In this document: piece by piece, positions 7,940 through 59,600 of the stretch
How the letters are laid out: each line of letters opens with the position of its first letter
Numbering within the stretch: the stretch's first letter is position 1
From: Prosopocoilus inquinatus
Taxonomy: Eukaryota > Arthropoda > Insecta > Coleoptera > Lucanidae
DNA length: 64,000 nt
Assembly (NCBI GenBank): GCA_036172665.1
Contig: CM069874.1
Coordinates: forward strand, 25,875,946-25,939,945
Direction: 5' to 3'
Made by a program: the position numbers and the translations under genes
Notes under the pieces: model-generated
Databases searched by the model: none
What the model was told of the DNA's origin: nothing
The model's input: the letters and a program-made list of their open reading frames with translations, nothing else

Positions 7940-8110
7940 AAAAATTAAGTAGCAACATCTTGCGATGACAGTGCAATGTCAAGTCAAAAAGAAATCGCTA
8001 CTTAAGCTTTTCATTATTTTTAACCCCAAAATAAGGCTGAAACAGAGGATACTGGAGGGATCCACTGCAATTAAAAAAGATTTGCAGAATCATGTACTTA
8101 AAAAAACTTA
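7940..8110 (+). repeat. Relic of the hammerhead repeat family (right arm plus flanking module)
   Basis: The segment carries the family's flanking module (GACAGTGCAATGTCAAGTCA) and, after unrelated sequence, the right arm of the ribozyme unit (GGCTGAAACAGAGGATACTG, then GGGATCCACTGCAATT). The CTGANGA core half and the left arm are missing, so no ribozyme can form. It shares both parts with the repeat at 44481-45060. Confidence 0.5.
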
Positions 8111-8314
8111 TTATGATTATTATGCCGTTCTTCTGCTCTCTGTTGTGAAGTTTATCATTCTGCCGTACTTAGGTACTTGTATAAAATTTGTTACCACAGT
8201 GTAGGTTTATTGATTGATTTGATACTTCTTAGTCTTAGTCTTAGTTTTAACAAATTATCACTAAATTAGTTGCCAGTAAAAGTCAGTTTCGATTGCAGTG
8301 AACTTCCTGAGCAA

Positions 8315-8361
8315 CTCTTGGACAGCTGTTTCGGCCCTGTTTTGTACCTCCTCAGCAAAGG
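8315..8361 (-). ncRNA. Hammerhead ribozyme, partly decayed copy
   Basis: On the minus strand: stem I CTTTG, core CTGAGGA (8355-8349), a weak stem II, GAA (8332-8330), then A-C, loop AGCT, G-T and cleavage base C17 (8321), then CAAGAG as the other stem I strand. All invariant core bases of the type I hammerhead are present. Stem I pairs for three Watson-Crick pairs plus a wobble; stem II begins GG/CC. The outer arms (AGATTGCAGCGGAG and TTCACTGCAATC) are complementary, as in the 44.6-kb copies, so this is the same repeat family. Catalytic competence is doubtful because both helices are weakened. Confidence 0.5.
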
Positions 8362-9318
8362 TGTAACGCGTAAACTCCGCTGCAATCTAAGTAATTCTGA
8401 TTTCTAAATCGAGTGAACATGTCGACAACAGTTTATGTCGCGTCATCGCGCGGCCAATTTTTGACCTAACCTTGTGTCAGAATGACAAATAGTAACTACA
8501 TAGTTTGCTACCTAAAATATAACGTGTTCATTTGAATTTGTGGTCAAGTGAGCTTTGACGGCTGTGTACCATCGTAATCAGAAAAACCGATTACATTAAA
8601 AATTGTTGTTTATTGAAGCGTACTTCAAAGGAACTTTTGCCATTTTCACGTTAATATCAATATGTCAGACCAAATAAAAATGCCGCACTTAAATGCGATT
8701 CAAAAGACGATAATTCAAATGCGATTGCAAGAGAATCAATTTTCGAGCAATTTCAGGGATTGCAACTAAAACAATAATTAGTCCTGTACCGTTTTACGCG
8801 CGAATGAAATAGATGAGAATTTATAATTGGAAAATAAAAGATAAACATTGTCAAAATTAACGTTACACAATTAAAATTTTTGAAAACGGAATAGTCTGTT
8901 TCACTTCGACGTAGTCGGTTTTTATCATTACGTATGTCGTAGCGTATGTCAACACGCACTCTCACGTCGCGTCAGTCTGTTTACCGGCCTGTGTCAAACA
9001 GGTTTGTTTCTAATCTAGAAAAATCGTGCTTAAAACGAACGTGTATTTCTCGCAATGAGGTTAAAATAAATGGTATTTTGTAAATAAAAATAATTGTTAA
9101 ATTTGTGCATTCTTTTCGGCGAATGTCAGATTAAAAGATAAGCCGTATGATTTGATTCACGACAGAAATTTAACAGTTCCAAAGATCACAAGACAACAAA
9201 TTCAGATGAATACATGTTACCTTTCTGTACGAACGGTCAAATCATGCCATTGCAGCGAATTTTGAAATGCAATAAATTAGTTGGAAGACAGTTTCGATTA
9301 CAGTGGACTTCCCCAGTA

Positions 9319-9367
9319 TCCCTCGGACAGCTGCTTCGGCCCCGTTTGGGCCCTCCTCAGCTAGAGA
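9319..9367 (-). ncRNA. Hammerhead ribozyme relic with A15.1 changed to G
   Basis: Minus strand: core CTGAGGA (9360-9354), stem II GGCCC/GGGCC (5 bp, with an extra G), then GAAGC where the family has GAAAC, loop AGCT, GTC (9328-9326) and CGAGGGATACT, which pairs imperfectly with ACTCTCTAG. The change of the conserved A after GAA to G and one stem I mismatch suggest a decayed or weak ribozyme. The flanking arms carry the family words ATTGCAGC and TCCACTGTAATC. Confidence 0.4.
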
Positions 9368-9469
9368 GTAGTTTGTGACTCTGCTGCAATCAACTGCCCT
9401 AACCTAAAAGCCTAACCGTGTTATCTCAAAACCGAATTATTATCCTACATTTTATGAATATGCAAATTT

Positions 9470-9780
9470 TGAAATGCAATAAATTAGTTGAAAGTTAGTT
9501 TCGATTACAGTGAACTTCCCGAGTATTCCTCGGACAGCTGCTTCGGTCTTATTTGGGCCCTCCTCTTTACAATGTAATTTAAACGAGAAACTGTGACTTC
9601 ATAAGATGCAGGATAGTATACACTGGATTTCGAAATAACCTGGGCAGGTTTTTTGCTTCGCGTGTTAAGTCCGTTTGCAGTAGAGTTCACGAGCTACTCT
9701 CTAACTGAAGAAGCCGTGTTGCAATCGAAAATGTCTTGTAACTAATTTATTGCATTTCAAAATTCGTCACAATGGCGTGA
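9470..9780. repeat. Two further decayed members of the hammerhead repeat family in inverted orientation
   Basis: 9470-9560 (minus) retains CCGAAGCAGCTGTCCGAGG but its CTGANGA box has become AAGAGGA. 9690-9770 (plus) retains CTCTCTAACTGAAGAAGCC but then jumps to TTGCAATCGAAAATGTC. Neither can form the ribozyme. They face each other and share the sequence AACTAATTTATTGCATTTCA. Confidence 0.4.
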
Positions 9781-9899
9781 TTTAACCGTTCCTGCAGAGA
9801 GATATTTTGGGTATCAAACTAGTTACTATTATCTGATACAAGGTTAGGTCAAAAACTGGCCGCGCGACATACATCGAAAAGTTGAGTTTAAAGTCGCCT

Positions 9900-12160
9900 T
9901 TTCGCTGTGTGTTTCCTGAAGAAGTCTTCAAAATTTAAAAATTTGTGAAAATTCAACTCAAAATTTTTAAAGTGAGATAAAAAAATAATTAAATAATAGG
10001 AGTACAAGATTAGTTAATTTTGCGATTCCTTATCTACCAACGCCATCAATCATCACTTTAACCATCATCAGGTAAAAAAAAACTGATGTACCGTCATATG
10101 TAAATAAAAGTAAACGACTCCTAAGGGCATACATACCATTTTTGCTTTACCTTAGTTTTATAAAACCGGTTTTGTGCAGCATTGAAAAATCAAAGTTAGA
10201 CATACAGTACCACCAAGCCATGGGATATTGTTATGAACCAGATTTGAATGAGAGAAATAGTACCAACGCCTCAACCACGCCCACCCAGAGCTGTTGTGCG
10301 CTTGGTGGCACCTGATGGTACTTTTAATTTAAAAATAAAATAATAAAACTTATTTTCTATTATTTTTCTTTTTCCAGGAAATATTTTTAATACTAAGGGT
10401 GCCCGCAAAAAAATAGCTCAGCGTTAACTCTGTTTTTGAAAAGACATCTCCCAATTTCTTATTTGTAATTTTGAACTTTTGTAATCGCAACCGAATCAGT
10501 AGTGTTGGAAATCGCTGGAAAGCAGTCAAAAAATGTTTTAACAAATTAGAATGTTTACTTGTTTTTAATAAATTAAAAAGTAGGTGAATACTTTAATCAC
10601 ATTTATCTCCGAGAAACCTTCTCATTTTATGGTATACTTTTCCTTTTGTCATAAGTTGTTTTTTTATGAAGTTCGTCAAAAAGAGATGAAATTTTAAGTA
10701 ATTTTTTTATTTGTATGTGTTTACATAAAAAATGTTTGAGAATTTGTAACTTTCATCATAATTTTCCTGCGACAACTAATTTAATTTAATTTTCATTTTT
10801 TCAGATTTAAATTATCAGTTTATTACATGCAACTAATCATATATTTGTAGAAGCATTTAATTTTTTTACGATGAACTGTAGACAACACACACGTTTACAG
10901 GTGCTTTTACAAGACCGTATATTCAGACTATCTAAATATTTTCAAATACATAAAAAAACATAAATATTTTCGAATTAGCCAAAATATTTAGTGTCTAACT
11001 GCATAAAAAACATCTTGTCATCTGAACAAATACTTGTTAGTTTATTTCTACAAAATAAAACCGTCATATTTAGCTAGTTTATCACGATATTAACAACAAA
11101 CTCGGAAAATTGGTTGAATATTATTAGTCAAAGAATGATTCACGCATTAAGAAACAAGATCAAATGACGTCGCATGTCTTTGATGAATCTGTTCGGACCG
11201 AATATGTGATATTTATTAGCCATTAAGCATTCAACAGACGTGATGAAAATGCCTATTTTTAGTTGGCAGACGATCAATTGCTTCCTAGAACACTAACATT
11301 ACACTACATCTTGTTATGTCTTAAGACATGCCAAGTAAACCGTGTTTATAGAAACTCAGATGACAATCTTGATGTAGTACCAATTACGTGCAAATTGAGG
11401 GATTTTAAGTATTACGACGATTTCTTTGTGACCAATTGGACGCAATTTCATCTTCTTAAAGAATACTCTGTTTTAAACGGTAAATAATTCTTGACCGCAA
11501 AATTAAAATGAAAAATTCTTGGAATGGTTAACCACATGTATTTAGACGTGTTTCCGTTAAATTGTCAATAAGTTTACAAAATATCGATTTCTTCGATAGC
11601 GCCCTAACTATTAAATAGGTATAAAAGAAAATATTTACAAAATTTATCAGGTTCTATATTAGAATATTATTTTCACATATATAGCATGTTCTACAAATGA
11701 CTTATCCACTAAATTTATACTTTTTATAAATGGTATGCATACATTTTGATTGCATATTTCAGTAGATTTCTAAAAGCAAACAATTCTTATTCACCAAATC
11801 AAAGTATTCGCGTTTTACTGTTAAATATTTAGTAACTGCATTAAAGAGCTGAATGTATTCATAGTTAGCGTCAAAAAAACTACTTTTACTGTGCCTAACT
11901 AATTATTAATAATTAATTATAATTAATTAATTCAGTGTAGAATAACTTTTTCGAGTTAATAGTAACGTTTTTAATGTGTATTTGCAGAGAAACAATTGAA
12001 AGTTGAAAGTTCTTTTTTTCAGGAAATATAAAGGAACGCCGTGTATATTTTCACACATTTAAATAACTATGTAGTTAAATTCTATTTCTAACAAATGTAA
12101 AATACATTAGTTTTAAGCTAAAGGTTTTCGAGATATCTACATTTAGGCTTACATTATACA
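9900..12160. other. AT-rich DNA, no gene seen; one short hairpin
   Basis: No supported gene. At about 10203-10323 a hairpin is formed by AGTACCACCAAGC and its near reverse complement (GCTTGGTGGCACC...GGTACT), a MITE-like structure of roughly 120 bp. The remainder is AT-rich single-copy-looking DNA with only short, low-information frames. Confidence 0.4.
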
Positions 12161-12469: not shown

Positions 12470-12600
12470 TTAAGTAGCGATATCCTGCGATAGCTTTCTC
12501 ACCTGATATTGCAACAGGATTGAAACAGCTGTACAGAGGATGCTCGAGGGATCCATTGCAGTCAAAACCAATTTGTAACAAAATACATGTTTGTACTTTT
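12470..12600 (+). repeat. Hammerhead-family relic directly upstream of a LINE tail
   Basis: The family module AGTAGCGATATCCTGCGATA is followed by GGATTGAAACAGCTGTACAG and AGGATGCTCGAGGGATCCAT, the right half of the ribozyme unit. The left core (CTGANGA) is replaced by CTGATATTG, so the catalytic core is incomplete and C17 has become A. It abuts the reverse-transcriptase tail that starts about 12610. Confidence 0.45.
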
Positions 12601-12609
12601 AAGTTGTAA

Positions 12610-13050
12610 TTGAAAACAAATGAATATTGTATTACAAGACACAAAGTGTTCGCAATGCAAAAGAAAGTCATAAGACTAATGATGGGAGTACCACTACAAA
12701 CATCGTGTAGGGAATTGTTCAAAGCTTTAGAAATATTACCTTTTCCTGCTTTGTATGTGTATTCTCTGATTATATTCACGAGAAAAAAATCCAGACAACC
12801 AAAAAGGTCAGATTTACATCAGTACAATACAAGAACAAACAACGAAATACAAGTTCCATTTTCAAGACTTACGGCAGGCCAACAGAACCCCAATTACATC
12901 GGACCAAAACTCTACAACAAACTGGTGACGTTGGATGGCGAATTTCAAAAATGTAGTATAAACACTTTCAAAACAAAGCTTAAGACCTTGCTGTTAAAAA
13001 ATTGCATTTACTCTGTAAATGAATTTTACGACTTCAAAATTAATAGTTAA
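12610..13050 (+). pseudogene. C-terminal tail of a non-LTR retrotransposon ORF2
   Basis: A 146-codon plus-strand frame ends in a TAA at 13048-13050. Its sequence order, QKKVIRLMMGVP then CRELFKALEILPFPALYVY, then HQYNTRTNNEIQVPFSRL and NPNYIGPKLYNKL, is the pattern found after the reverse transcriptase in many insect non-LTR (LINE, jockey-type and relatives) ORF2 proteins. No reverse transcriptase catalytic core is present, so this is a 5'-truncated insertion, typical of LINEs. An AATAAA occurs about 80 bases downstream (13129-13134). The clade cannot be fixed from this piece. Confidence 0.55.
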
Positions 13051-21530: not shown

Positions 21531-21575
21531 ACTGTCGACGTATGTTTCGGTCTTATTACACCTCATCAGGACAGT
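21531..21575 (-). ncRNA. Hammerhead ribozyme, complete type I core
   Basis: On the minus strand, 5' to 3': stem I strand ACTGTC (21575-21570); core CTGATGA (21569-21563); stem II GGT...ACC with an 8-base loop; GAA; a 2-bp stem III (A-C paired with G-T) closed by loop ATAC; cleavage base C17 (21537); then GACAGT (21536-21531), which pairs perfectly over 6 bp with the first strand. Every invariant hammerhead position is present. The very short stem III with a tetraloop is the architecture known from ribozymes of Penelope-like elements and metazoan retrozymes. Predicted cleavage lies between 21537 and 21536. Stem II is short (3 bp). No surrounding element was delimited. Confidence 0.75.
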
Positions 21576-32038: not shown

Positions 32039-35000
32039 GTAATTAAATTAGATATACTTACCTATAGTTCTTAGGCGCATTTTATATAAAATCAATTTTG
32101 TCTTATATTACAAGTAAGAAAGAGAAGATGCAAATTTTAACTTCTTATTGCCATTAGGTATTATTTTCTTTTAAAATTAAAATGTTTATATTACATTTCA
32201 ATATTAAAATGAGAATAGGAATTTTAATAATTAGTATTGTTTCTCGTCCGCTGAAATGTATCAAATTTTTGTATTAATTAATGTTCAAATAGTTTTCACA
32301 AACATTGAAATAATTACGTAGGCCTATTTTGTAAGCATTTCATATTTATTGTTAAGCTTGTTACGATTGATATGTAAGAAGCATAACAATTGGTTTCCTA
32401 AAAATCGTATTCTTTTCAATTGATTGTTACGTCTTATTGGTGGGTTTCTGCGGCGTTCCTCCTCAATTATTGTTAAGTATCAATTGAAATGTTGGTGCTT
32501 ACAGAATACACACGTTTGTAATGTTTGAACATTGATTTGAAACAAAATATCAAATTTTTTTTTTATTTTTGGAACAAAACAAAATTAACTCGCGTGTTTT
32601 AAGGTTTAATTAAAAAAATTACATAATGAGCATTTCGCAAATACGGTCATCGACACGAGGCTTAATAGCCGCGTATATTGACCAGCATGATTTATCTACG
32701 TTTGCTTAGTTTGCAGTTCTTTTCGAGCTATGAAACAAATACAAAATGTACATTTAACACAGGGAATTCCATGCTGATAAATGACACCAAGTCACCAATT
32801 GAACTTGTTTGAGGAATGCACAATGAACGATATCTTATATGTACACCGTTGGTTATTTTTCAACGAAATATTTCAAAGTTTGTGAACACTGTCTGATTAG
32901 GAAAGTTCGACATAATTAAACAAGTAAAACAAATAAACATTTTACCTTTTAAAAGTTAAAAGAAAAATTGAGAACATCACAATAACCCAATTAAGAAAGT
33001 TTAAATATTTTTGTTTCGGAAATTGATGAAAATTTCAAATGAGTTAAAAAAACAAACAAAGGCTAAAAGGCGCTAATAAAAGAATTAGGAATAACTCTAA
33101 AAAGCTGTGATTTAGTCATAGAATTAGTCGTAGTTCTTAATAAAAAAAAGTGGCATGTTTAAGGTTTAAGTTTTGCCCTTACATTTAATTTTTATACAAG
33201 TAGGTAACGTGCTTTGAAGAAAGTAAAGAACGAATACTGGAATTTTGCTGTCGATACGATGCATGTTAAAATAAAGAAAGGGCATCGGACCTTCCGAATT
33301 GACTGAATTTAACTGTGTAGCACGTGGCTTTAAATTAAGTTTGAGGGTCGGATCAAAATAAGTATAAAACGAAATTACTTACTCTACTTTAATGAACTGA
33401 GTTAAAATTGAGTTTAGAATTTGAGTAATACACACACAAAATAGAAAAAAATGTAACAATGGATAGTCAAATCGAGCGGGTAGCGGCACACACCCGTTCC
33501 TGAGCGAGAGCACCCTTGCACTACCTCGACTTCCTCGGGTTCCTTTGGGTTCCCGGAATTCTAAGTCCGACATTCCGCTACACACTCCCCCTCTGGCTTC
33601 GTCGACGTCCCGGCACGGAAGCCAGTTGACTCTTAGGAGGTCGTCCTCGTTTTCGTCGAGGGGCAATAGGTTCAACCATCGTAGGATCCGCCTCCAAATG
33701 GAAATGCCGCAGATCGCTGCAATGGAACTTCCCAACTGCTCTTCCTTGGGTATCATCAAGCTCGTATGTCGTCGGGCTCACTCTTCGAGTTATAACATAG
33801 GGTCCATCCCGCTTGGGTGCGAATTTAGTGGTAAACTTGCTAGCGGCATTGCTCAGGGAATGAGTGGTGACCAACACGTAGTCTCCGGGCTTGAAATTCT
33901 CAGGAGCCGTCCTTGTGGAGTCCGCAAATACTTTCCGACGATCTTGCTGGAGCTCCATCGTTTCCTTGGCCGTTTTGAGCACGCGTGCGAAATCCCGTAA
34001 ATATGGACTGACTTCCGGCACAAAATTGTCGGAATCGACAATGCTTCGGAGATCACGATTTACATCGTCGGGTGTTCTGAGTTCTCTTGCGAATGTCAGA
34101 AATGCCGGGGTGTGTCCTGTTGACTCGCACGTGGCAGTATTGATAGCAAACCTTACTGCAGCTAAGTGTTCGTCCCATTTGTGATGTTCTTTCTGGACGA
34201 GGATCGCGAGTTGAGTTTTTATATCTCGGTGTTTCCTCTCTACCGGGTTACTTGCCGGATGGTATAAAGGGATCAACGCCTGGTGCATGTTTAGGCAATA
34301 TGTAACTTGTTGCATGACGGCGCTCACGAATTCGGACCCATTGTCGCTGATAACCTTCCTCGGCGTACCATATCGCATGCAAATTTCCTCGATTAAGATT
34401 TTGGCACAACTTTCCCCCGAAGCGATTCGTAGGGGAAATAGTTCTACCCATTTGGAAGAGGTATCTTCAATGGTCAGCACCCATCTATGCTCGTTAGGTG
34501 TTTCCGGTAATGGCCCGAATAAGTCCATGGCTATGACTTCGAACCTTCTTGTCGCCGCAGGAGTCTGGAGAAATCCAGCGGGTTTTAAGTTATTTATTTT
34601 GAAACGTTGGCAGTCCGTACAATTTCGGACATACTCCGTGATATACTTGCGCATGCCGGTAAAGTAATATCTCGCTGCGATCTTCCGCAGAGTCCTCTCG
34701 ACTCCGTAGTGTCCGGCGGAAGGAGCATCGTGGTATTCTTGCAACACCTTCTGTCGTTCTTGAACAGGCGTTACCAGCCGTGGCTCTTCCGTCTCATCGT
34801 CCTGATCATAATGGTATAGTACACCTCTGGACATCACGTATCCTCGCTCTGCCCACCTCACACTGTCTAAATCATCGCAATTCTCAAAAGTATCGATGAT
34901 TTTCTTTAGATCAGGGTCGGCTAGTTGTGCTGTGCGAATTTCCGCCGCCGATCTCGTTGGTAATTCTACACTAACACTTTGCATCGTTGTAAAGGACGAG

Positions 35001-38000
35001 TCATTGCTGTCTGTCGTTGGTCGAGATAACGCATCAGCGATCACATTTGCCTTCCCGGGTGTGTACGAGATGGATAGTCGATACGACTGTAATCGAAGTG
35101 CCCACCTCGCTAACCGTCCGCTCGGAGACTTCATGGAGAACAGCCACTTTAAGGGTTGGTGATCGGTGATTACATGTATATCGCTGCCTTCGATGTAGCT
35201 TCTAAACTTTTCCACCGCCCAAACTACCGCCAAGGCCTCTCTTTCCGTGGTGGAATAGTTCCTTTCAGCTGGCACGAGTAGTCTACTGGCATACTCGATC
35301 GGTTTTTCTTCGGTGCCCTCCCCCTGCAATAATACAGCGCCTAGGGCGTACCCGCTGGCGTCCGTGCGCAGGGTGTATGGCTTCGAGGGATCGGCCTGTT
35401 GTAAAACTGGAGCCTGCGTCAAAATTTGTTTAAGTGATACAAACGCGGTATGTTCGTCGTCACCCCATTCCCAGTTTGCTGTTTTCTTCGTTAAGGCTGA
35501 CAGTGGTCTGGCGATTTCGGAAAAGTTCGGCACGAATCGCCGATACCAAGAGCACATCTGGTAAAAGCGCAAAACCTCCTTGACGTTTCGAGGTGCCGGA
35601 ATATCTAGAATTGCGCGAATCTTTTCGGCATCGACGTGTATACCTTCGCCGGATAAGATATGTCCTAAATATTTTACCGACTTTCGCGAAAACACACACT
35701 TGTCTCTATTTGCGCGCAATTTAAAAAGTACTAGACGCTCAAAAACCGCACTCAAGTCTCGTAAGTGTTCGTCAAATGTGCTCGATATCACTATAATATC
35801 GTCCATGTACGCGGCCACGGTACGATCACCTAATCCCGCACGGAAACGGTCCATTAGTCGTTGGAAGGTCATTGGGGCGTTTGTGAGTCCGAAAGGCATT
35901 CTTATAAATCGGTACGTACCGAACGGACACACAAAACACGTTTTATCGCGGTCTTGTTCGCGTACTCGCACTTGCCAATACCCGGATTGTAAGTCGATTG
36001 TCGTAATGTAGTTCATTGGTTTTTCCGCATGCAACAAATCGTCCATACGCGGCATTGGATAGCTGTCCTTAATAGTAACTTCATTCAAACGTCGGAAATC
36101 GACGCAGACACGTACTGCACCATTTTTTTTTGGCACCATTATTAACGGTGCTGCCCACGGTGACTCGCATTCCTCGATAATATTATCTTCTAACATCTGG
36201 TCCAGTTCCTGCTTCAGGATAGCTTTGTTTTTGGCATTCATGCGGTATGGGGCCACAGCGATAGGGTTATGCGTTCCCGTATCGATAGCATGTTCCGCGA
36301 AGGGTGTTGGTTCTCCCCCTAGCTGGAAAATGTCTGAGTGTTTTACTAAGAGTTGCTCCACTTGCGTCCTTTCTTCTAGTGTCAAGTCCTGTCCTTCGTC
36401 TGGGCGAAGTCGTGCTGCACTTGTTATACCTTGTAAGACTACTACTTCGGTGGACTTAAGCGGAATGTCTTCTGCAAATTCATACGTGGTTTCGGGTTCA
36501 TCTGCGAAACTCCAGGTATATTGCCCGTGGTTGAGGATTATTCCTGCTTTTTGCAAAAAATCAATTCCAAGAAGTGTTCGATTATGTTGCAATTTGGGTA
36601 GGATGATTAATTTTATTGGTATGATTCGCGTTTTCATTTCGATTTCAACATTCGCAATTAAAACTTCCTCATTTCTGGGTTCTCCGTCAGCGTACGCAAT
36701 ACTCATTTCTGTACTTGTGAACGGATATTGTTTTTGTACCAAGAAATCATAGACCTGACGTCCCGCAAGGCTGGCTTGCGCACCCGAATCGGCGAAAGCA
36801 ATAGCGTCCCTTCCTAACAGTTTGAACGGCAATAGGGGTCGACAACCGGATTCTTCACCGGGCGTCACTTGCATCACATTTGCGTAGTTTAAAGGTACAG
36901 GTGCATTCTCGTTCCGTTGTGTCGACGATTGAGTTGACCGGCCCGGGTTACAAGTAGTACAGTTTGCTCGTATTTTCCCGGGAGCGCCACATCCGCAGCA
37001 CCTTACTTGCGTTGGAAAGTTTGCGTTTCCCGTTTTCGTAGAATTTTCATTCGGTTTATCGTGTTTCAGTTTCGAACGACAGTCATCGATAGTATGGCCG
37101 AAATTTCGGCAGTAATTACAACGCGGACATTGTTTCGTTTGTGTTTCGGGTTGCTTCTGTTTGACTGTTATCTTTTGCGTTTTCGTCTCGAGTAGTTGCT
37201 GTTCCGTTTCACGCGCGGATTTTAATAAATCTTCGAATGTCTGCGCGTCGTCCCGTTTAACTCCTTTCCTAATTCGGCGATTCAGCAGGCCATAAATCAT
37301 ATCGATTTGGATATCAATCGTGGGTGGATTTTTTAAACGCGACAGTAATGCTCGAGCTTTACTTACGAATATATCCGTGGACGTATTTTCGTCCTGTTCG
37401 TGCGCGAATAGTTCGCGGTATATTTTGTACGCTGGCTTGTCAGGACCGTAAGAATTTTTCAAGGCGTCTAACGCGGATTTCCAGTCCATTATACCTGACT
37501 TCACGCCCTGCCAAAAAGTGGCTGCAGGGCCGGTTAGTAACATAGATAACCCTCGAATCGCATTTTCCTCCGAGATACCGACGTAATCTTTATATGTATT
37601 GATAGCGTCGATGAAAGCTTCTACGTTATCATCTGCTGACCCCGAGAAACGAGACGCGCATTTTGCGAAATTACCGAAGGTCGTTTGCGTTTGCGTCGGT
37701 GGCCCTTCGGTGGGCGTTTTTACGTTTACTTGCAGTTGTTGCAGTTGTTGAGTTACTTGGGCCTGGACTCCCGCTAACAACTGTTGCAACTGATCCGTGG
37801 TCATTTGTATTATCGCTGAACCGTCATTCATGTTTTCGCCCGTAGTAAATTGATTTGCTGTTGATTTTTTTTGAATTCTTTCGCTACGGCGAACTTGTTT
37901 CGGCATTCACGACGATCAACGATCAAAACGCGCCACTCATATTTCGAAAAAATAACACGTGCTAAATTCTGAGTGCGTAACGAAGACACAATAAATGTTC

Positions 38001-41600: not shown

Positions 41601-44600
41601 TAGGGTTATTGTGGGCGCATATCTCCTTTTACACAATCTTGTGTGTAATAGGAATTGGCAGCTTGGGTTATAGGGTTATATGGGGTTATTGGTAAAACCT
41701 GACGTGATGGAATTAAATGGACCACGGATTTGGATTCAGTGATCCCGAAAACATATAGTAGACTATAGTCTAACCTTCAGATCTGAAAATTTTTTTTTTG
41801 TGTGGCTGTGTAATACTTTCGAGTTCACTTTAATAAAGGCGCTAACTTTTAAGGTGCACACACATCGTTTAGGTGTTATTGTTGTTTTAATTATCGGCAG
41901 TAAACTGTTTCATAAATTGAAGCATTTAATCCTTTCCTGAGCGCTGGTTAAGATTAGATGGCGCTCAACTTTTCGCGTTTAATGAACCCTCACGTCCGAC
42001 ACGACCGAGTTGCTGGCTGTGCTGTAAAGCTGCTTTTTCTGCTTGGATGATGAGATATTTGGGAATTGCTGCTAGTGGTTCAACGATAACCAATAACTTT
42101 CGTCAAGTGAATAACAAAAGCAATCGACAAATATCCAATACTCCAAAGCAGGAAAGGCACAATCACAATCTTGTTACGACTCAGGTAGGTAGCAAAGAAG
42201 CAAATTCCAAACAGTGAAATACCTCAGACATAGAGGATTTAAATAAGAAGTTAAGGCATCGATTTCACCAGATAATTTATGTTTACTTGTGGAATTATGC
42301 CCCAAACAACCTGCAGAAGGGTGTTCAACTCTGCGGAGGGTTCGCCAAGTTAGTCAATCTATTTCCCATCGTGTTCCATACATGTTCCATTGGAAAAAGA
42401 TCCAGAGATGTAGGCGGTCACGGTAAGATACTACACTCCATTCACGTTAAGAAAATAGTAAGAATATCTTATCTCTCCCTCCCTACGTTGACGCTAGCGC
42501 GTCATGTAGTTGTTTAATTCCTAACAACGCTGACTTAGCGGGCGATTGGAGGGAGTGTGTACGATACTCCTACTATGTTCTTAATGCGAATGGAGTATAG
42601 TGTGGGCTGCTTCAAGTAAGTTCAAATGACGTCTCGGTATAATTAGTTGTGCACTGTGATATCGAGAAAGATGTTCCAATCGTTGTTGGAACGTCGTGCA
42701 ACTTATGGAAAATTTTAAAAACCCTTTGAGGCAAAATTAATTCATTTTACCCTTTAATTTGTTTTTTTCGCAGCTTCATGACAATAGGTTATACCTGTCG
42801 GAGAACCCTATATCTTCTGCAGTAAATGTGTATAAAATCATTTTTTTGCATAATTTTAGATTGTTCTCTGATCTTTGAACAATTGTTAAAGTTAATTTTA
42901 AACATAAAATATTTAACCGATTTTACAGTACACTATTTTTCGCCCGTATTGGTCAATCCTGTATATTGTTTTTTAAAAATTTTATTACTTTGCAACTAAC
43001 TATTTTTATAATTAAAAATCTCTAGGATTTTTCAGCATTTTTTGAAATACAAGCAGATCAAGTTTTATTAATTTCAAATAATATCGTTATTGATGTTATT
43101 GTTTCAGGTGACATACCAGCAAACATTAAATATTTTCCCACAAAACTGAATTTTGGTGGAGACATATCGTTTACTCCAGAGGAATGGTACTTAGAACCGG
43201 ACGATTGCGCTTCATTTGTGATGCAATTTTCTTCTAATGTACAGGGACAATTTGTCGAAGAAATTAAGTTTGTCATAGAAGAATCTAAGGAAATTATTCA
43301 GTTCATTTTTAAGTAACGACGAAATTACATAACGGGCATTCTCAGTGTCATAACTGGTGATTTATTTTAGGGGTGACATAGTGTGTCCTGTCTTGAATTT
43401 CAATATAACGGAGCTTTCCTTCCACAATATTCCTCTTGGTACATACAGAAAAAATATTAAATATTTTTTTTTATTAATTAATGTCAAATTGTCTTCAAGG
43501 TTTTGTAGTTAAAAGAGATGTCCAGTTAATTAATACAACACAAGTACCGATTGAATTCGATATTTCCATCGAGCCAGATGGAACCTATCCAGCTATGAGT
43601 TGTGAAGAGTACGCAAAAAGTATAAACAAACCAAGAGTTTTTAATCCGAAAGAATTTTCTGTTAGTCACGTAGAAGGGATAGCAGAAGCGAACAGCGTAG
43701 TATATGTTGAAGTAAATAAATTCTAATACTTCAAGAAAAATGTTGATGTTTTCGGTCGATTTTAGGTACGTTTGTTGCCGAACAAGGAAGGACGGCATGC
43801 AAAAGAATTGACAGTGCAAATGTGGAAATCAAATAAGTATTGCATGTCACTCCCGATTAAATACTATTGTCATGTGCCTCATATAGTATGTGAAACCAAA
43901 GAGCTTTTACTTAGGGGTTGTTTTATAAATTATTTCTACAATCGGACGATTGTTTTAAAAAACAAAAACTCTTACCCTGGATATTTTGTTATATTACCAC
44001 AAGAAGTAAGTTTCTGGTACCTAATTTAAAACGATTATTTAAATAATATTGAAATAATTTAAGGATTCAAGTAGTGAAGGCGTGATATATTTTCCTAAAA
44101 TAAGCGAGGATTTCATTGAACCATATGAAGAGAAGGAAGTTGAGATTGAAATTTCAACAAACGTCATGGGTCAATCAGTCGCTCATGTATTGTAAGCAAT
44201 TTTTCTAGTTTTTTCGTTTCAATTTTAATTTTGTAATTTTCTTTGTTTAGTCTGTCGGTATTTGGCGAAAATCCGAAATTTCATCTTTGTAGTATTGTCT
44301 GCAATGGACAAGGTCCTGTACTGTCAATACCCGACTCTCTGAATTTCGGAAAAATCAAAACATTAAGAAATGTTACGGAAATAATCGAAATTATTAACGA
44401 CTCGCCAGTGGTAGCTCATGTTACTATCTCTAAGGTATGGAAATTAATATTATAAAGTACAAAACAGAATAGAAATTTTTAACAGATAAAATAGCGACAT
44501 CTTACTATCGCTTTTTGACCTGACATTGCAGTAGGGTAGACAAATTGAAGCGGGATTTGCTCCTAATAAGTTCCCCATGCAAGGCGGCCATGCGAATAAA

Positions 44601-47600
44601 TTGGGCAAGTCGTTTTTGTTTGCAGCGGGAATGTCGAGCTACGTCTCTGCTGAAGAAGCCCCAAGCAGGGCTGAAACAGCTGTCCAGAGGCTGCTCGAGG
44701 TTCTCGCTGCAATCAAAAACGATTTGCACAAAATTTTTCTAAAATCTTTCATTATGCTTTGACAGCAAGCATGGCCGCCTTGCATGGGGAACTTATTAGG
44801 AGCAAATCCCGCTTCAATTTGTCTACCCTACTGCAATGTCAGGTCAAAAAGCGATAGTAAGATGTCGCTATTTTATCTGTTCATCACTCTTACATCGCAA
44901 ATGCGAATAAATTGGGCAAGTCGTTTTTGTTTGCAGCGGGAATGTCGAGCTACGTCTCTGCTGAAGAAGCCCCAAGCAGGGCTGAAACAGCTGTCCAGAG
45001 GCTGCTCGAGGTTCTCGCTGCAATCAAAAACGATTTGCACAAAATTTTTCTAAGAAATTTTTAAGTTAAGAAAACAAGTTATTTTTGAAAGAAAGGGATT
45101 TTAATTAATAGGAAATTTCAACGACTGTTGTCTTTCTAAGGAACTAATAAAAAAAAATCTCCACGCTGAGGCCAATTATATGGGGGCGTTAGTTTGAAAC
45201 AATTAGATACTAGCGTGCTTTCTTTAAAATAAAATAAAACTTTCAATTACGATTTCATGACCACCGGATAATCAGGGAAAAGAATTCAGGCCACTTAGTG
45301 TTGGACGCTGTCAGAGCCGGCGGAAAGCGGTAAGCAATCTAAGCAAGTCATGAGGGCGCTGATGCAAGAGGGGCGTCAAAATACTGTCTCTAAATTCCGT
45401 GGACCTGGATTCACCACAGATTCATGGGTTCAAAATAAGACGATTTAACCAAACTTACCTATATCTTTAATGATCTCGTTAAGCCGGTATTCTTTTTCAA
45501 AGTTCTTGAAGAAAAAAACTATTTTTCTTATAGCAAAGGAACGCCTGGACCGATTTGGATGTACTTTGGTACGAGGTTCCACTAGAAGGTAAGTCACATT
45601 TACAAATGGTTGTAGTTACTCGCAGTGAACCCCTAGCATAAAAAACAGGGTTGCCATAACACATATCTTACTATAACTTTTTTGAGGCTAGGAATGTAAC
45701 TTTAGTTAATTTAATAATTTAAATATTTTTTACATTTTTTCTTTCTAAAAAGTTATTAACTAAAATTATTTTCCTAACCTCAAAAATATTTACTTATAGT
45801 AAGATATGTGTTGTGGCAACCCTGTTTCTCACATTAACGGTTAACTGCAAGTAACTAAAACCACCTGTGACCTTCTTGTGGAACCTAATACCAAATTTCA
45901 TCCAAATAGGTTCAGGCGTTCCTTGTTATAAGAAAATTTTTCTCTTCAAGAACTTTAAAGAAGAAAACCGGCTTAACGAAACCTTTACGGATGTAGATAA
46001 ATTTGGTTAAATCGTCTTATTTTAAGTCCAATCTGTGGTTAAGCCATGTCCACGGAATTTAGAGACAGCCTGTATATAAATTAAAAAGCGATTAACGTGC
46101 AGCTCGAACAATCTAAAGGTCAACTAAACTTCAACAAATGAACTCAAGAAAGAAATCAAAAATAAAAAAAACAATAAAAAAATTTAAGTGAATATTTTTT
46201 TTTAAATGTTCAACGTCCACCCTGAACTCGACCTAACTTCATCCGTCTCAAGTAAAAAAATAAGAAAAAGAAACAGATTAAAAGAAAAAATTAAAAGTAA
46301 AAAACCTTAAAATCAAACGGAACAAATTTCAAGGTCAACCCAAGTCAAGTGAAATCAACCTAACCTAATTAAATGTTAAGATGTAATTTCTTTTGCAGTA
46401 AACCTTAGTTGTTGATTGTCTAAGGTATGTTTGATTATTAGGCTAATATTATTATAATATACGCAAATTTATAATAAAAGTAATAGTAATAATAAATTGT
46501 GTTCAACTGAAGCAAAAAATTAAAAATGCAAAAAACTAAAAGTAAAAGATGCAAAAAGAGCGATTAAAGAGAAGTTCGATCAATGTAAAGGTCAATCAAA
46601 TTCGATCCAACAACTAAACTCGATTCTATTCATTCCAAGCAAAAAAATATTAAAAACAAAAAGCATTTTAAAAATATCAAGTTCCATCAAATTCGAGACA
46701 ACAATTAAACTCGGTTCTATTCAACCCAAGCAAAAAAATAAAATAAAAATCGAAAAATTTTAAAAAATTAAGTAAAAAATTAAATGACAAAAGATTTTGA
46801 AAGTCAACCCAACCTAACTGCACTCAACCTAATTCCATTCAACCCTAGTTAAAGTAAAAAATATATAAAAATTTTTACATTCTTAAAATGAGCATCAACA
46901 AATCTCAAGGTCAACTGAACTCACCCAACATATTATATCACATTGTACTCCATTCTACAAAAATAAAAGATTAAAAAATTACTTTAAAAAGAAAATTAAA
47001 AGTAAAAGAAAATAATTTATGGATTAGAGTTAAGCTTAATAAGTCTCAAGATCAATCCAACCCATCCGACATCAATTTCATCTAACGCAAGTGAAAGATT
47101 AAAGATTACTGAAGTAAAGATTAAAAAAAAATAAAAAATCAATTGAAACTCAAGTTCAACTAACGTCAAAGTCAATCCAATCCAACTTATCTCAACCTCC
47201 ATTTAACACAAATTTATAGTAAAATTTATATTAAAAATAAAAGTACAAAAATGATTAAAAATTAAAAATCAGTTAAAATGAAGCTCAACCAATTTCCATG
47301 TCAATATAACCTAACCCAGTTTTATTCAACCGAAGCAAAAATGTAAAAAAATGAAAATAAAAAAAATCCTTTAAATGCTAGACTTATTTTTCCATATTTT
47401 ACAAAAATCACTTACCGCCAAATAAAAATTAATTCGTCCATTTTGGTTGCCAGCCGCCATTGTTTAAAAAACTAAGCCATGGTTTATCGCCTGTTGGGTG
47501 ATATGTCTCCACCGTTGGCAACACTGTCTGACTCTAAAATTACGAAATTTTCTTATGGTGATTACTTTTTAAGTTACGAGCTAATGTCCACAGCAAACAT

Positions 47601-50600
47601 TTAAACTGGTTGAAAGTTAAGCAAAAATTTGTCAAACATTAACATAGATTCTGGAAAAATAATGGATACATTCAAATTAAAAAAGAATCTGGCAATTGTG
47701 GAAATTCACGAGAATTTGTTAATTTTTTTGAAAAAGGGCGCCTGTTACTCATTCGCTTAAGGGCGCCGACTACTCTGGCCCTGGACGCTGTGTTGGACGT
47801 CGATGTGTCTATTTACTCCTTCCGCCTTTCCGCAGCTCCAATATATCAATTGGTATTGAGTGTTATTGAGTGCAATGCGAGCGTTCGCACTTCGCAGAAA
47901 TTAGTGTGCACGAGGCTAATACAGTCCGAGTACTAAATTTTAGTACCGTTCGCGAAACAAGTGGCCCGAATTCTATTCCCTGTTGATGACATTCAAAAAG
48001 AAAATTGACGTGTTCCGTGGCTACATTAATAAATGAGTAAAATAAAGTGAAACTAACGAAAGCTGTATAAATTTACAATAAACAATTACGAGGCACACAT
48101 AAAAAGCAGGACGCCGAAATGGTAGACTCAAGCGCGAATTTGTTCGTACCAGATGCGAAATCAGCCAATTGTAAAATAGGAAAATACTCTCGGAATGAAC
48201 ACGCATGCCTGCGAGTTAGGAAAGTGCGATTTCTACAGTAAAGAAGTAATAGACGGTGTTGGCTTCACGAAATAGAGTACGTGATCTATCATGGGTGAAA
48301 TTACCGAGGTTGAAAAAGCAACTGTAACATCCTCTCTTGCAACGCCTGAAAGGAGTGTCGTAATATTACTTAATTACAAAAAATGTAGCTTCAATTCACA
48401 GCTTAAAACTTTTATGTGAATGATCATCTCTGTCTATTTTTGTTGAATAAATGATTAGACCTTATGTATACTTTCAGAAACCAAAATCAGTTTACGAAAT
48501 TGAAGAACTCGACTTTGAATTGGACGCATCTGCCAAAAAAGATTTAACAGTCAAGATGTTCTTCAGACAGCCGGGAGTATTCGTCGAAAAAATCAAATTC
48601 TTTGTTGAAAACTCAGAAAAAAAAACATGCGTTTTGAAGACCGTTGCGATAGGTTCTAGTATATTAACTGAACCCGAATTGGATGGCGAATACAATATTG
48701 GTTATGTTTTCACCTACCATTATTACAGACAAGGTTTTCGTTTTACCAACAAGGGTAGTAAACCTCACAAGATAATTTGGTCGAGGAAAAAAATTGTCAG
48801 AAGCTGGAAGGAATCAACAAATACTGCAGACGTAGCGTAAGTTTCCTTATTCTGTCTCATCATCAAATAAATTTTACTAATTAAATTAGATCCACTTTTT
48901 CATTGGTTCCAAATCGTTTTGAATTGGCTCCTGGACAAAGTATTGAATGTGAATTGGTTGGTTACACAACAGTCTGTGGTAAGATCGAAGAGGATTTTTA
49001 TTGCCACGCACTTATTGGAAAGCAAAAGCAATTTGGAGTCGTTGCATCTTTCATTGTAATAGCAGAATTTGTTGTTCCTGTTTTAGAAATTTCCAAAGAT
49101 GTAATGGAGTTTAGGATTGATAGGGGAATAAGTGATGTATTCGAGTACTTAACTGGTATAAAAAATAAAACGAAAACTCCTATGTAATTGCAAGTTCTGA
49201 TATTCCTTTGCAGACACTCTTTCCGTAAAAAATAAATCAAGAATCCCAATTGAAGCAAGAGTAACTATAGATGCTCCCTTTTACATAGTTCAGAATGAAG
49301 AACGCACGAGTTCTGCTGAAATGCTTGCCGAACACGATGAGGTTACTGAATTCAGCATAGAATTCGTGCCAGTATCACAAACAAAACGCTGTATGGTTTC
49401 AGAGGGCTTCTTTGTAATAATGTACAGTTGTCATCCAAACAAGGCTAGTCACATTAGATTGATTAAGAAATTCTTTAACGATGTATTTAGGTAAAAATTC
49501 TTCTTAGGGGCGAAGAAAATTATCCGAACGTCGAACTTGAACCGACAGTCTTAAATTTTGGATGCCTGCCGAACTTTTTCACTGCATCTCAACAAATGCT
49601 AATGCAAAATATCAGTCCCCTTCCAGTTTCTTATCATTGGGAGTGGATTCAAGAAAAGTTCGAAACAGAATACCTCGACATAGTTCCGGTACAAGCAGAT
49701 TTCCTGCTGTATTTTCATATTTCTTTGTCATTCTCTTCGCTTTTCAGATAAAATTTCCCGAGAAAACTGAAACATATTCGAGTGAAATCTCGACAATTTC
49801 CACGCCTGCTTTTAAATCCTACGTAAACGTTTTTGATTATTTAGAATCCGAAGAAAATAGTCAAGAGCAATTAGTTTATAAAAGACACGAAATAGAAGTG
49901 CCTAATTTTCCTGATAAACAAATCGAAGAAGACTTGCCTGGCCAAGTGGAAAAAATTGAAATCACTGAACCTACTCGGAAGTGTGAATATTTTAAAGAAA
50001 TTCAAGTTATGTTGTATCAGCTTGTGGCGAGGTTTGACGCTCAAGAGGATGATTCAGTAGCTATGCAGAGTTTGTACAGAGAAGAAGTAAAGACGTCGCA
50101 AGTTCATGAAATTTTAGAATTAATTCCAACCTACGGTTATTTGGGGCCTTTCGAATCTCAGAATATTTCAGTGGAATTTTTTCCATATCCAAATACATTA
50201 GTGCGAGGGGTTGCACATTGTCACGTTACTGGGGGGGATGTTGAAATTGTACCAGTTTGCGGCAGAGCTGCGAATATCAGCTTTTCAATTGATAAAACCG
50301 TCATAGATTTTGGAAGAATGGTAAGGCAAGCGAAGCAGCTATAGAAATGTCTAAGCATAACACAATATGTTGCAGTTGTTTTGTGACATGTCCGAACAAA
50401 GAATTATGTTGGAAAATACTGGTTTTGCCGAGTTTAGATACAAAGTCAAAGGTTGTTATGATAATTATAAAAAATCTGTTTTGCCTCAGATACACTCCGT
50501 ATTTGTGACACCCCCAGAAGGCTTAGTTTTGCCCAACGAAAAAAGGTGTTTACAGATAAAGTTTTATCCAGGATTAACAGGAGAATTTACGAAGCAATTG

Positions 50601-56600: not shown

Positions 56601-59600
56601 GCACTTGATTACTTACAGGCTGGTTAAAAAGTAACTTCTATTCGAACTAATTTCAACTGTCGAAAAGTCATGTTTTTTAAATGGAACGCCTAGAATATTT
56701 TTATACCATGTGACTCAGGATTAAATGTTCTTTCGTCCTGTATTAGCATTCTCTATACCTATCTCTTATAGTTCACTCGTTATCGATGATTTCTTTTTAG
56801 CACGTAATTTTTTTTCACTTTTCGGTATTATTTTTAAATAGTGGGCTATGAAAACTAGAGAAATTATAATTTTTGAAATTTTCCGTCTAGTAGGAATAAA
56901 AAAAACAATTTAGTCGCTACGAAGAACCAAAAAATTAATAATCAAACACAGACTTATTAAATGTATTTGATAAAAAAAATCGACAATTCAACAAGTTAAT
57001 AAAAAAAGTTATTATATGGAGGAAAATGCGTTATTACTTGGATACAGTAGAAAGTTATTTCTAATAAATAATAGCCGAGGACAACTTAGAGCCAATATTA
57101 TAACCAACAATTTGTGTATTATTTTTAATATTTCTAATTTATTTATTAGTTTTCATAAAATTTTGTACTGTAAGTGTAAATTTCTCCTTGTATATGTGTA
57201 AATAGTCATGCCAAGAATTCTAATACATGCGGCATATGTAAATAAAAATTTCAGATGATAGATATGTATTAAATATTATTTCTTTTTTTTTTAAATGAAA
57301 TTGAAATTACAGTCAGAAATTAATTTGAAAACCTCAGTTTGTTAAATTTTCATAGCACACTATTCAGGAATAAAACTGAAAAGTGAGAAAATTGATGTGT
57401 CAGAGAGAAAATCGTGAATAGAAAGAGAAAGGTAAGAGATGGGTATAGGGAATACTAATACAGTTCGAAAGAACATTTAATTCTGATTCTTATGGTATAA
57501 AAAATATACTGGGTGTTCTATTTAAAAAACATGACTTTTCGACAGTTGAAATCAGTTCGAATAGAAGTTACTTTTCAACCAGCCCGTAAACAATTTTACG
57601 TAATATTAGGTATGACCTCAAAGCTTATAAGCATAGCCTACTACAGGCCAAAAATTGAAATTATGGCTTTTGTTACACAAAGACATCATAAACAAGGTAC
57701 TGCAACTTTGAACTTTTTTTAAAAGATGGTAATATCTCTAAAACGGCTAATTTTTCTTGTATCACATGTTACACAAAATATTTTTAGAATTTCATGGAGA
57801 TTTTCAGAAATGCAATAAAAAATGGGGTATTCCATTTAAAATAAGAAAGTTGACTGCAAGTTCCGGTACAAGCGGATGTGCCCGAAAGTTATGCCCGCAA
57901 AATATAAAATAGAAATTCAAAGAGAAAGTCCGTAAACTTTTAATTAAAGAGTTGCCTGAATCTCCCTGTATATATTTGACATATACTCAATTAATAGAAT
58001 CTCCTTTGCGTCCCAGAAAACCGTAGCGATCATTTTTCCCGCAGAAAATTGCGTATTTGCTTTCTTGCGTGGAGGAGAGCTCTTATGAACCCATTGCATG
58101 GACTCCTGTTCCATGGTACAGTTACAATTCTACAGAAGAAATATTCATCTTGGGATAGAGCAGTCAAATTCTCCTCCAACATTTGTCGTCTGCAAAGTTC
58201 TTGTTCAGGTATGAGCAGCTTAGGAATCCTTGTGCTCATTCTCAAATATTCGTGTAGAATTTTAAAAACACTCGTTTCTGCCCTTTATTCTATGATCCGC
58301 ATGTTGCTAGCGCTCAGGCATGCGCCTTCTCTTCCAGTTAATTTTCTGATAATTGAAATTAATCTCCGCCCACAAAAATGTTACGTCCGTAGATACGTAT
58401 TTCGGCAGCAAAGCTGCCATCTTCAGTAAGCTACCAACTTAAAAGCACCTAAAAAGATCGAAAAGTAACCTAATCATCCTAATAAAATCATAAAAATGTG
58501 AAAACTAACTACTATTTAATCATCCTAAAAGGTATATATGTCTAAATGTAAGTAAAAATAGACATATACTAGGTGTCTCACAACGTACGGAGATTGAAAG
58601 AGCAGCTATAAGACATCAAAATAAAGCTCTTTCCTTAATTCGCTTTTGACCAAAACCCAATAATAAGAAAGTTACAGCAGTTTAACTTTAATGAAACCCG
58701 TTTTTGAGTATTAAAAGAAGAAATGAAATAGTCGTTACTTTAACGTGACTATATTTTTTAAAATAGTTGTTTATTGTAAAGCAGTGTTCAATTAACCCAT
58801 AAATGCCTCAAATTAGAATTTAAAACGTAAAATGTTACACAAGAAGTAACTTTTGTTTGATAATTAATTTCACTTTAAACTCTTGTAACTTTTTAGTTAT
58901 TGTTTTTTTATCAAAAATCTATTAAAAAAAGTCTTTAATTTGATCTACCCTAGCTACTCTTTTAATCTCCTCCTTAGGTTATGAGACACCCAGTATATCT
59001 TTTATGATGATTGGATTGTTGTTAGTTTTTACATTTTTATGATTTTATTACGATGATTAGGTTATTTCTAGATCTTTTTAGGTGCTTTTAAGTTGGTAGC
59101 TTACTGAAGATGGCAGCTTTGCTGCCGAAATACGTATCTACGGATATAAATTTTTTGTGGGCGAAGATTAATTTCAATTATTTCTTAAACCACAGTCTTC
59201 TTTACTGTTTTAGTTAATTTTCTGAATTTATTCCGCTTATCCCGGAAGTGCCCGAAAGTTGGAAATATTATATTTTATTGGATCATTATCGCTAACTTAT
59301 AACCGCAAAATAAGAAATAGAAATTCAAAGAGGAAGTCCGTAAACTTTTAATGAATGTGTTTCCTGAATCTCCCTGTATATATTCTGGAACAGCGCTGGA
59401 TTTGCCACTGCGGTGGCCTTAACTACCTCCGGAGGAAGATGATTTGCAATTCCTCCTATGTGTTTCTCTGAATTGATCCCTCTGCATTTATCCCTCTGCG
59501 CATCTTGAAACTTTTTCATCTTCTACTACCTCATTTCAGTTCTCGGGAATAACTTTTTTATCTGCCATCTTCGGGGTTTAGCTGAATATTTGCTTTGAAT

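Follow-up and report, generated by a model that had tools for sequence, protein, structure and literature searches.

Retrozymes are a known kind of non-autonomous animal retroelement, and what is new in the case reported here is the manner of insertion. As described by Cervera and de la Pena (2020, PMC7229834), metazoan non-LTR retrozymes carry type I hammerhead ribozymes with a short stem III in units of ~170–400 nt, have a G+C content below 45–50%, occur as dimers to multimers with target duplications of more than 4 bp, have no LTR, primer binding site or polypurine tract, and are expressed as circular and linear RNA. The circles were proposed there as templates for Penelope or LINE enzymes, which was still a proposal in a December 2024 review (PMC11722881). 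Plant LTR retrozymes share with the present element a hammerhead-flanked unit thought to move via circular RNA, but have type III hammerheads, LTR features, 4-bp duplications and circles of 600–800 nt (PMC7229834). For Penelope-like elements, a purified protein was reported to cleave and extend both DNA strands in vitro, and to start at two internal sites of its own RNA (Frangieh 2024, PMC11167929). Rotifer Penelope copies are mostly head-to-head with 8–10 bp duplications, one of the inverted repeats carrying an optional 31-bp tail, and self-priming on an antisense template was favoured as their origin (Arkhipova group 2013, PMC3846280). In a literature search that included PMC7229834, PMC7761336 and PMC11722881, and that covered main texts, mostly of papers outside subscription, we found no account of a head-to-head or two-site retrozyme insertion.

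The window analysed here is a 64,000-nt stretch of the Prosopocoilus inquinatus genome (contig CM069874.1, positions 25,875,946 to 25,939,945), which contains the following features:

44435..48477, + strand: HYDIN intron holding the insertion (HYDIN matches on both sides; splice sites by eye)
44650..44684, + strand: hammerhead ribozyme 1 (core, stems II and III), predicted cut after 44684 (44684/44685)
44961..44995, + strand: hammerhead ribozyme 2, predicted cut after 44995 (44995/44996)

HYDIN acts in motile cilia and sperm tails. Translations of the open reading frames flanking the intron match HYDIN chains in order, with residues 534–783 before the intron and 924–1198 after it (whole-query E 1.5e-28), and the borders were placed by eye at the donor AAG/GTATGG at 44435 and the acceptor TTTCAG/AAACC ending at 48477. 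Between the open reading frames of the HYDIN region, a 1442-codon open frame at 33581–37906 on the minus strand resembles, by eye, an LTR-retrotransposon polyprotein.

The two hammerhead copies have the same sequence over all 35 nt. The core is complete (CTGANGA, GAA and C17), the H17 position and the A15.1–U16.1 pair are as they should be, and stem I is open-ended (type I), being formed by CTCTG/CAGAG, 7 bp long when the next two pairs are counted, and resuming beyond an internal loop. Stem II consists of AGCCC/GGGCT (5 bp), and stem III of AC/GT (2 bp) with the loop AGCT; the internal loop TACGT/GCT of stem I and the loop CAAGCA of stem II are candidate loop I/loop II elements. The core, stems, coordinates and HYDIN matches on both sides bear out an earlier sequence-only reading that two identical, complete hammerheads lie in sense orientation in a HYDIN intron, and the 311-bp spacing and the two cut positions that it predicted were also confirmed on the sequence. 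The assignment of the motifs as complete type I hammerheads, in sense orientation inside a HYDIN intron, is supported. Stem III and its loop together form eight bases, ACAGCTGT, that are a perfect palindrome, so one ribozyme could also pair with another, as was reported for salamander retrozymes (PMC7229834).

To gauge how often such motifs arise by chance, we used a descriptor (stem I at least 4, stem II at least 3 and stem III at least 2 bp), which matched four sites in the window, namely the two HYDIN-intron copies, 21537–21569 on the minus strand and 8321–8355 on the minus strand. Across 150 random 64-kb sequences drawn from a first-order Markov model, the same descriptor matched three sites, and none of the 150 held a match with stems I and II both of at least 5 bp. 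The site at 21537–21569 belongs to another sequence family; it is a complete hammerhead standing alone, with stems I/II/III of 6/3/2 bp. The check by covariance models that the earlier reading had proposed came out mixed: an Rfam scan of 77 bases at the second copy gave a clear end-to-end alignment to Hammerhead_1 (RF00163) at 44955–45001 with 25.8 bits and E 6.8e-5, below the gathering score of 34, which is a curators' cut-off and not part of the ribozyme definition, while a scan of the whole window at gathering cut-offs returned nothing. Among the hammerhead models, a scan of 801 bases returned only HH9 (16.3 bits, E 0.56); microRNA-like matches in the same scan (MIR851 and others) were put down to the long hairpin described below. 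In computed folding, the hammerhead fold (−72.3 kcal/mol) was 6 kcal/mol less stable than the best fold (−78.3 kcal/mol), tertiary contacts not being counted. A loose hammerhead pattern was found at four loci in viral contigs, whose 30-nt flanks seem, by eye, unrelated; a phage collection contained no match, which says little.

The ribozymes belong to a larger insertion of 573 nt (44481–45053), flanked by two copies of AGAAATTTTTAA as 12-bp target duplications and composed of two arms of one repeat unit:

44471..44482: left target site duplication AGAAATTTTTAA, final two bases common to the left arm
44481..44593, − strand: left arm, unit 197 down to 85, inverted, 113 nt, without ribozyme
44590..44593: arm overlap at the junction, 4 nt, ATGC (from mapping of both arms on the unit)
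44590..45053, + strand: right arm, from unit 217 across both ribozymes to unit 58, 464 nt, 1.49 laps
44685..44995, + strand: 311-nt retrozyme unit (unit position 1 = 44685), 44% G+C
44737..44745, + strand: site A (unit 53–61), a preferred outer end (end-site count over 25 insertions)
44877..44886, + strand: site B (unit 193–202), the other preferred outer end (same count)
45053..45064: right target site duplication AGAAATTTTTAA, first base common to the right arm

The insertion starts 46 nt past the splice donor. Its left arm is identical to the reverse complement of 44769–44881 at 113/113 positions, and the laps within the right arm agree at 152/152 positions. The site A end of this insertion falls on the second unit copy, at 45048–45053, and the left arm has its outer end at site B, near 44481. 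The long hairpin part of the insertion is far more stable than its shuffles (z −9.6, a figure that covers the hairpin part and not the circle), and circular folding of the unit gave −117.4 kcal/mol and a predicted rod with a branched middle. The layout was initially read as a one-off 5' inversion at the HYDIN locus, which was dropped because most fetched copies have the same layout. No reverse transcriptase or GIY-YIG gene is present within the insertion, as 573 nt of a 311-nt repeat leave no room for a reverse transcriptase/endonuclease gene. The sense ribozymes, ~250 and ~560 nt past the donor, could cut HYDIN pre-mRNA and release the unit; that the excised 311-nt RNA may become a circle is consistent with the sequence, because 311 nt is the repeat unit of a retrozyme family.

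The family was sought by querying the 650-Mb assembly, which gave 983 first-look candidates, of which 40 were scored and 43 rows returned. Among these rows, drawn from the 40 scored of 983 candidates, 40 were full-length at 98–100% identity and three were short; some scored copies stood in tandem at 310-bp steps. The scored places are not a random sample, because they are the best-scoring few and 37/40 lie on the plus strand; the head-to-head layout itself reads identically from either strand. A genome query with the middle of the unit gave no candidates, perhaps because common words were skipped, and says little. From these sequence matches, we conclude that the HYDIN-intron sequence is a young, recently inserted copy of a multicopy, dispersed retrozyme whose unit is 311 nt long. 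It shares with metazoan non-LTR retrozymes a type I hammerhead, present once per unit, a small unit low in G+C, multimers (single arms run to 5.9 laps), dispersed copies whose target duplications exceed 4 bp, and a circle predicted by the computed fold to be highly self-paired. The mapped copies (34 loci) showed no LTR layout. The element differs in its head-to-head arms and two fixed ends, which the text of PMC7229834 does not mention.

Older, diverged relatives of the unit were found on both strands of the window at 7940–9960 and 12480–12640, six window regions aligning to the unit better than 60 shuffles each. By eye, minus-strand relatives near 9330 and 9530, ~206 nt apart, lie beside a plus-strand piece and are perhaps an old head-to-head insertion. 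In older segments, defined by less than 96% identity to the unit, differences were found in 14/164 comparisons at core positions and in 306/3204 at all other positions. The free position 7 varies among the older ribozyme rows, and 9/11 of these rows have A for C at position 17 (four of them from the mirrored locus L032). Hammerheads tolerate A in place of C at this position. The older copies with A17 come from L015, L027, L030, L031 and L032, and the young ones have C.

To define the manner of insertion, we mapped 34 loci on the unit, namely 33 fetched regions, which hold the other 39 full-length places, and the window copy. By an automatic criterion (a minus arm and then a plus arm, with a gap within 30 nt), 31/34 loci are head-to-head, with the RNA 3' ends facing outward; the exceptions are L015 and L016, which have a plus arm only, and L038, which has the head-to-head order with 151 nt between the arms. 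The plus-only copy at L016:2042–2222 runs from unit 196, which adjoins site B, to 65 and has an 11-bp duplication, as if its B arm had zero length. For analysis of the ends, we took 35 head-to-head insertions away from stretch ends, including older insertions in the same stretches; in 27/35 the duplication reaches 9 bp or more, and 8/35 have none that long. Of the 27, L018 and L032 were set aside for their fully mirrored flanks (72/72 and 70/70); the mirror threshold was 60%, which L045 narrowly passes with 43/72 mirrored. The palindromic surroundings of L018 and L032 (full) and L045 (partial) reflect either a target preference or fold-back duplications. The end-site count thus comprises 25 insertions (24 young loci and one older insertion in L031), the young loci outside it being L015, L016 and L038 (layout), L034 and L035 (an arm runs off the stretch), L013, L026 and L027 (no duplication reaching 9 bp), and the two mirrored loci.

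The outer ends of these 25 insertions follow a simple rule: 12 are B/A, 12 are A/B and one, L014, is A/A, so that 24/25 combine one end at site A with one at site B (Fisher p 2.7e-6 for the A/B pairing), the sites lying ~138 nt apart on the unit. The target duplications are 12 bp long in 16 insertions, 13 bp in seven, 10 bp in one and 14 bp in one, lengths that are maxima in a search with sliding boundaries (18 by 19 positions); an exact 12-mer was shared by two in 200,000 random pairs of window places. By contrast with the outer ends, which are fixed, the inner arm ends are scattered over the unit; at the joint, the arms share at least 1 nt in 18 insertions, meet exactly in one and are separated by extra bases in six. 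The two kinds of arm are of similar length (median 362 for A-arms, 372 for B-arms, p 0.89). In the circular fold, the mean unpaired probability of 15-nt windows is 0.81 at site A and 0.66 at site B compared with 0.36 overall, ranking A 9th and B 32nd of 311 in windows chosen with the sites already known; in the site B window, the first part is paired and the end sits at a hairpin's 3' foot.

These observations are probably explained by a single mechanism, in which the HYDIN hammerheads are one young retrozyme copy made when an RNA circle was reverse-transcribed from both strands of a DNA break, starting at A and B, by a Penelope-like enzyme. Following the published retrozyme cycle, multimeric transcripts would be cut by their hammerheads into 311-nt monomers, which would be joined into circles. 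A Penelope-like reverse transcriptase/endonuclease would break A/T-rich DNA with a stagger of ~12 bp, of which the duplications are the visible trace and the enzyme the presumed agent. The 3' ends of both strands would then serve as primers for reverse transcription, one of them at site A and one at site B, and the enzymes would travel along or round the template for between a fraction of a lap and about six laps. The two cDNAs would finally be joined, often with a few matching bases; the layout, ends and junctions are read directly from the copies, and the order of the steps is conjectural. At HYDIN, the outcome would be a 113-nt minus arm and a 464-nt plus arm beginning shortly past the donor and carrying two sense ribozymes, from which HYDIN pre-mRNA could in principle release the unit again.

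Sequence variants shared between the arms bear on the template. The arms of one insertion agree in 212/216 comparisons at 11 sites in 29 pairs, compared with a mean of 81% and a maximum of 89% in 5000 shuffled arm pairings. The 11 sites were picked after viewing the variant lists, L032 was excluded, L014 fell short (right arm 94%) and L027 offered no comparable site. The four disagreements fall in L021 (two), L023 (one) and L035 (one). For example, 140T>C is found in 6/6 laps of one arm of L035 and in 2/2 of the other, and 145T>C in 1/1 and 3/3 laps of the arms of L042. The longest arm spans 5.86 laps, the two arms of L034 together span at least 10.3 laps, and the ribozyme core is unchanged in 88/90 young laps. 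Among the variants given for young arms, none lies at unit position 311 or 1, indicating a joint without a scar. Judging from the shared variants and the lap numbers, both arms most likely derive from one RNA circle. A fuller version of the proposed mechanism, about which we are more hesitant and to which we give slightly less than an even chance, holds that each insertion is made by a pair of reverse transcriptases on one circular RNA, at A and at B, each primed by one strand of the ~12-bp staggered break and each circling the same circle, so that the circle serves as template for integration and a Penelope-like protein as helper, and the HYDIN copy may be a source of circles driven by a host promoter.

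The template could instead be a long linear multimer, transcribed from a tandem array and left uncut, in the same retrozyme and with the same two-ended priming. Tandem arrays do exist, a homogeneous array would yield an equal one-haplotype signal for each insertion, and unprocessed RNA was reported as the dominant in vitro substrate for one Penelope-like element (PMC11167929). However, given the single long arms, the span of L034 and the nearly invariant cores, a linear multimer would need many active ribozymes to be left uncut, which makes this explanation unlikely; a circle as template would explain the haplotypes and laps more simply.

Penelope-like elements form a large family in this genome: 150 places were scored of 1467 candidates, and one copy has an RVT_1 match (E 3.3e-15) and a GIY-YIG match below the cut-off. 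In the window, a piece of a Penelope-like reverse transcriptase frame at 205–459 on the minus strand matches the 150 scored genome places. Of the 22 neighbouring Penelope-like hit pairs no more than 5 kb apart, 19 have the minus-then-plus order; the other three are plus-then-minus, minus-minus and plus-plus. The fetched pairs, which were chosen as pairs, are head-to-head with minimal hammerheads in 3/3 cases, one of them (L067) being a nearly perfect palindrome. Unlike in the retrozyme, both arms of these copies stop at roughly one RNA position, in TA repeats, so the analysis does not identify the fetched family as the helper. A further pair lies in the window:

58336–59225: head-to-head Penelope-like pair, arms 58349 to ~58537 and 58993–59181 (sequence comparison)
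58392–58426 (− strand) and 59104–59138 (+ strand): minimal hammerheads of this pair

This pair has a 14-bp duplication, AGTTAATTTTCTGA, and a 30-nt tail (59182–59211) on the right arm only, a combination of one-sided tail and duplication that resembles the A/B rule of the retrozyme; another repeat-like stretch lies between its arms. Overall, the retrozyme shares with Penelope-like elements type I hammerheads, head-to-head insertion, target duplication and two start sites, the last in line with the reported both-strand cleavage and extension from two internal starts, and an optional one-sided tail is known among those elements. It works like a Penelope-like element and is not a member of that group, being a 311-nt repeat without a reverse transcriptase gene, with arms filled by laps of the unit, start sites ~138 nt apart, and duplications mostly of 12–13 bp compared with 8–10 bp in rotifers.

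The head-to-head layout might also arise by self-priming or template switching of one cDNA, or by L1-style twin priming by a LINE enzyme. Self-priming is the explanation given for head-to-head Penelope copies in PMC3846280, but folding back of one cDNA does not predict two fixed, differing outer ends, as found in 24/25 insertions. In LINE twin priming, both strands prime, yielding an inverted 5' part and a joint with matching bases much as seen here. Such inversions are occasional and accompany a poly(A) end, however, whereas the present element is inverted in 31/34 loci, runs for several laps and has two fixed ends inside the unit, neither at a poly(A) tail nor at the ribozyme cut, and we regard both routes as distinctly improbable. 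Scarcely any credence is due to a functional or domesticated HYDIN ribozyme controlling HYDIN splicing, close to the view of the sequence-only reading, which could appeal to two intact sense ribozymes just behind the donor but was dropped because the same sequence is dispersed and young in the genome, with 98–100% identity across the places scored, and is flanked here by target duplications of its own, with nothing locus-specific in what was examined; nor did the analysis turn up any sign that it acts in HYDIN expression, for instance by separating exons. An assembly artefact or a genomic fold-back duplication would suit the mirrored flanks of L018 and L032 and the palindrome of L067, but is equally implausible given that the other 25 insertions have non-mirror flanks (17–43 of 70–74 identical), duplications of their own, differing junctions and unequal arms.

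With two-ended reverse transcription of a retrozyme circle as the favoured explanation, the A/B ends, head-to-head arms, duplications of mainly 12–13 bp and single haplotype would be genomic traces of the integration reaction itself. They make the earlier proposal exact, specifying two RNA start sites, priming by both DNA strands and a single template per insertion, and tie retrozymes to the two-sided in vitro reaction of one Penelope-like protein. The same two-sided reading offers an alternative for the head-to-head Penelope copies that were earlier ascribed to self-priming.
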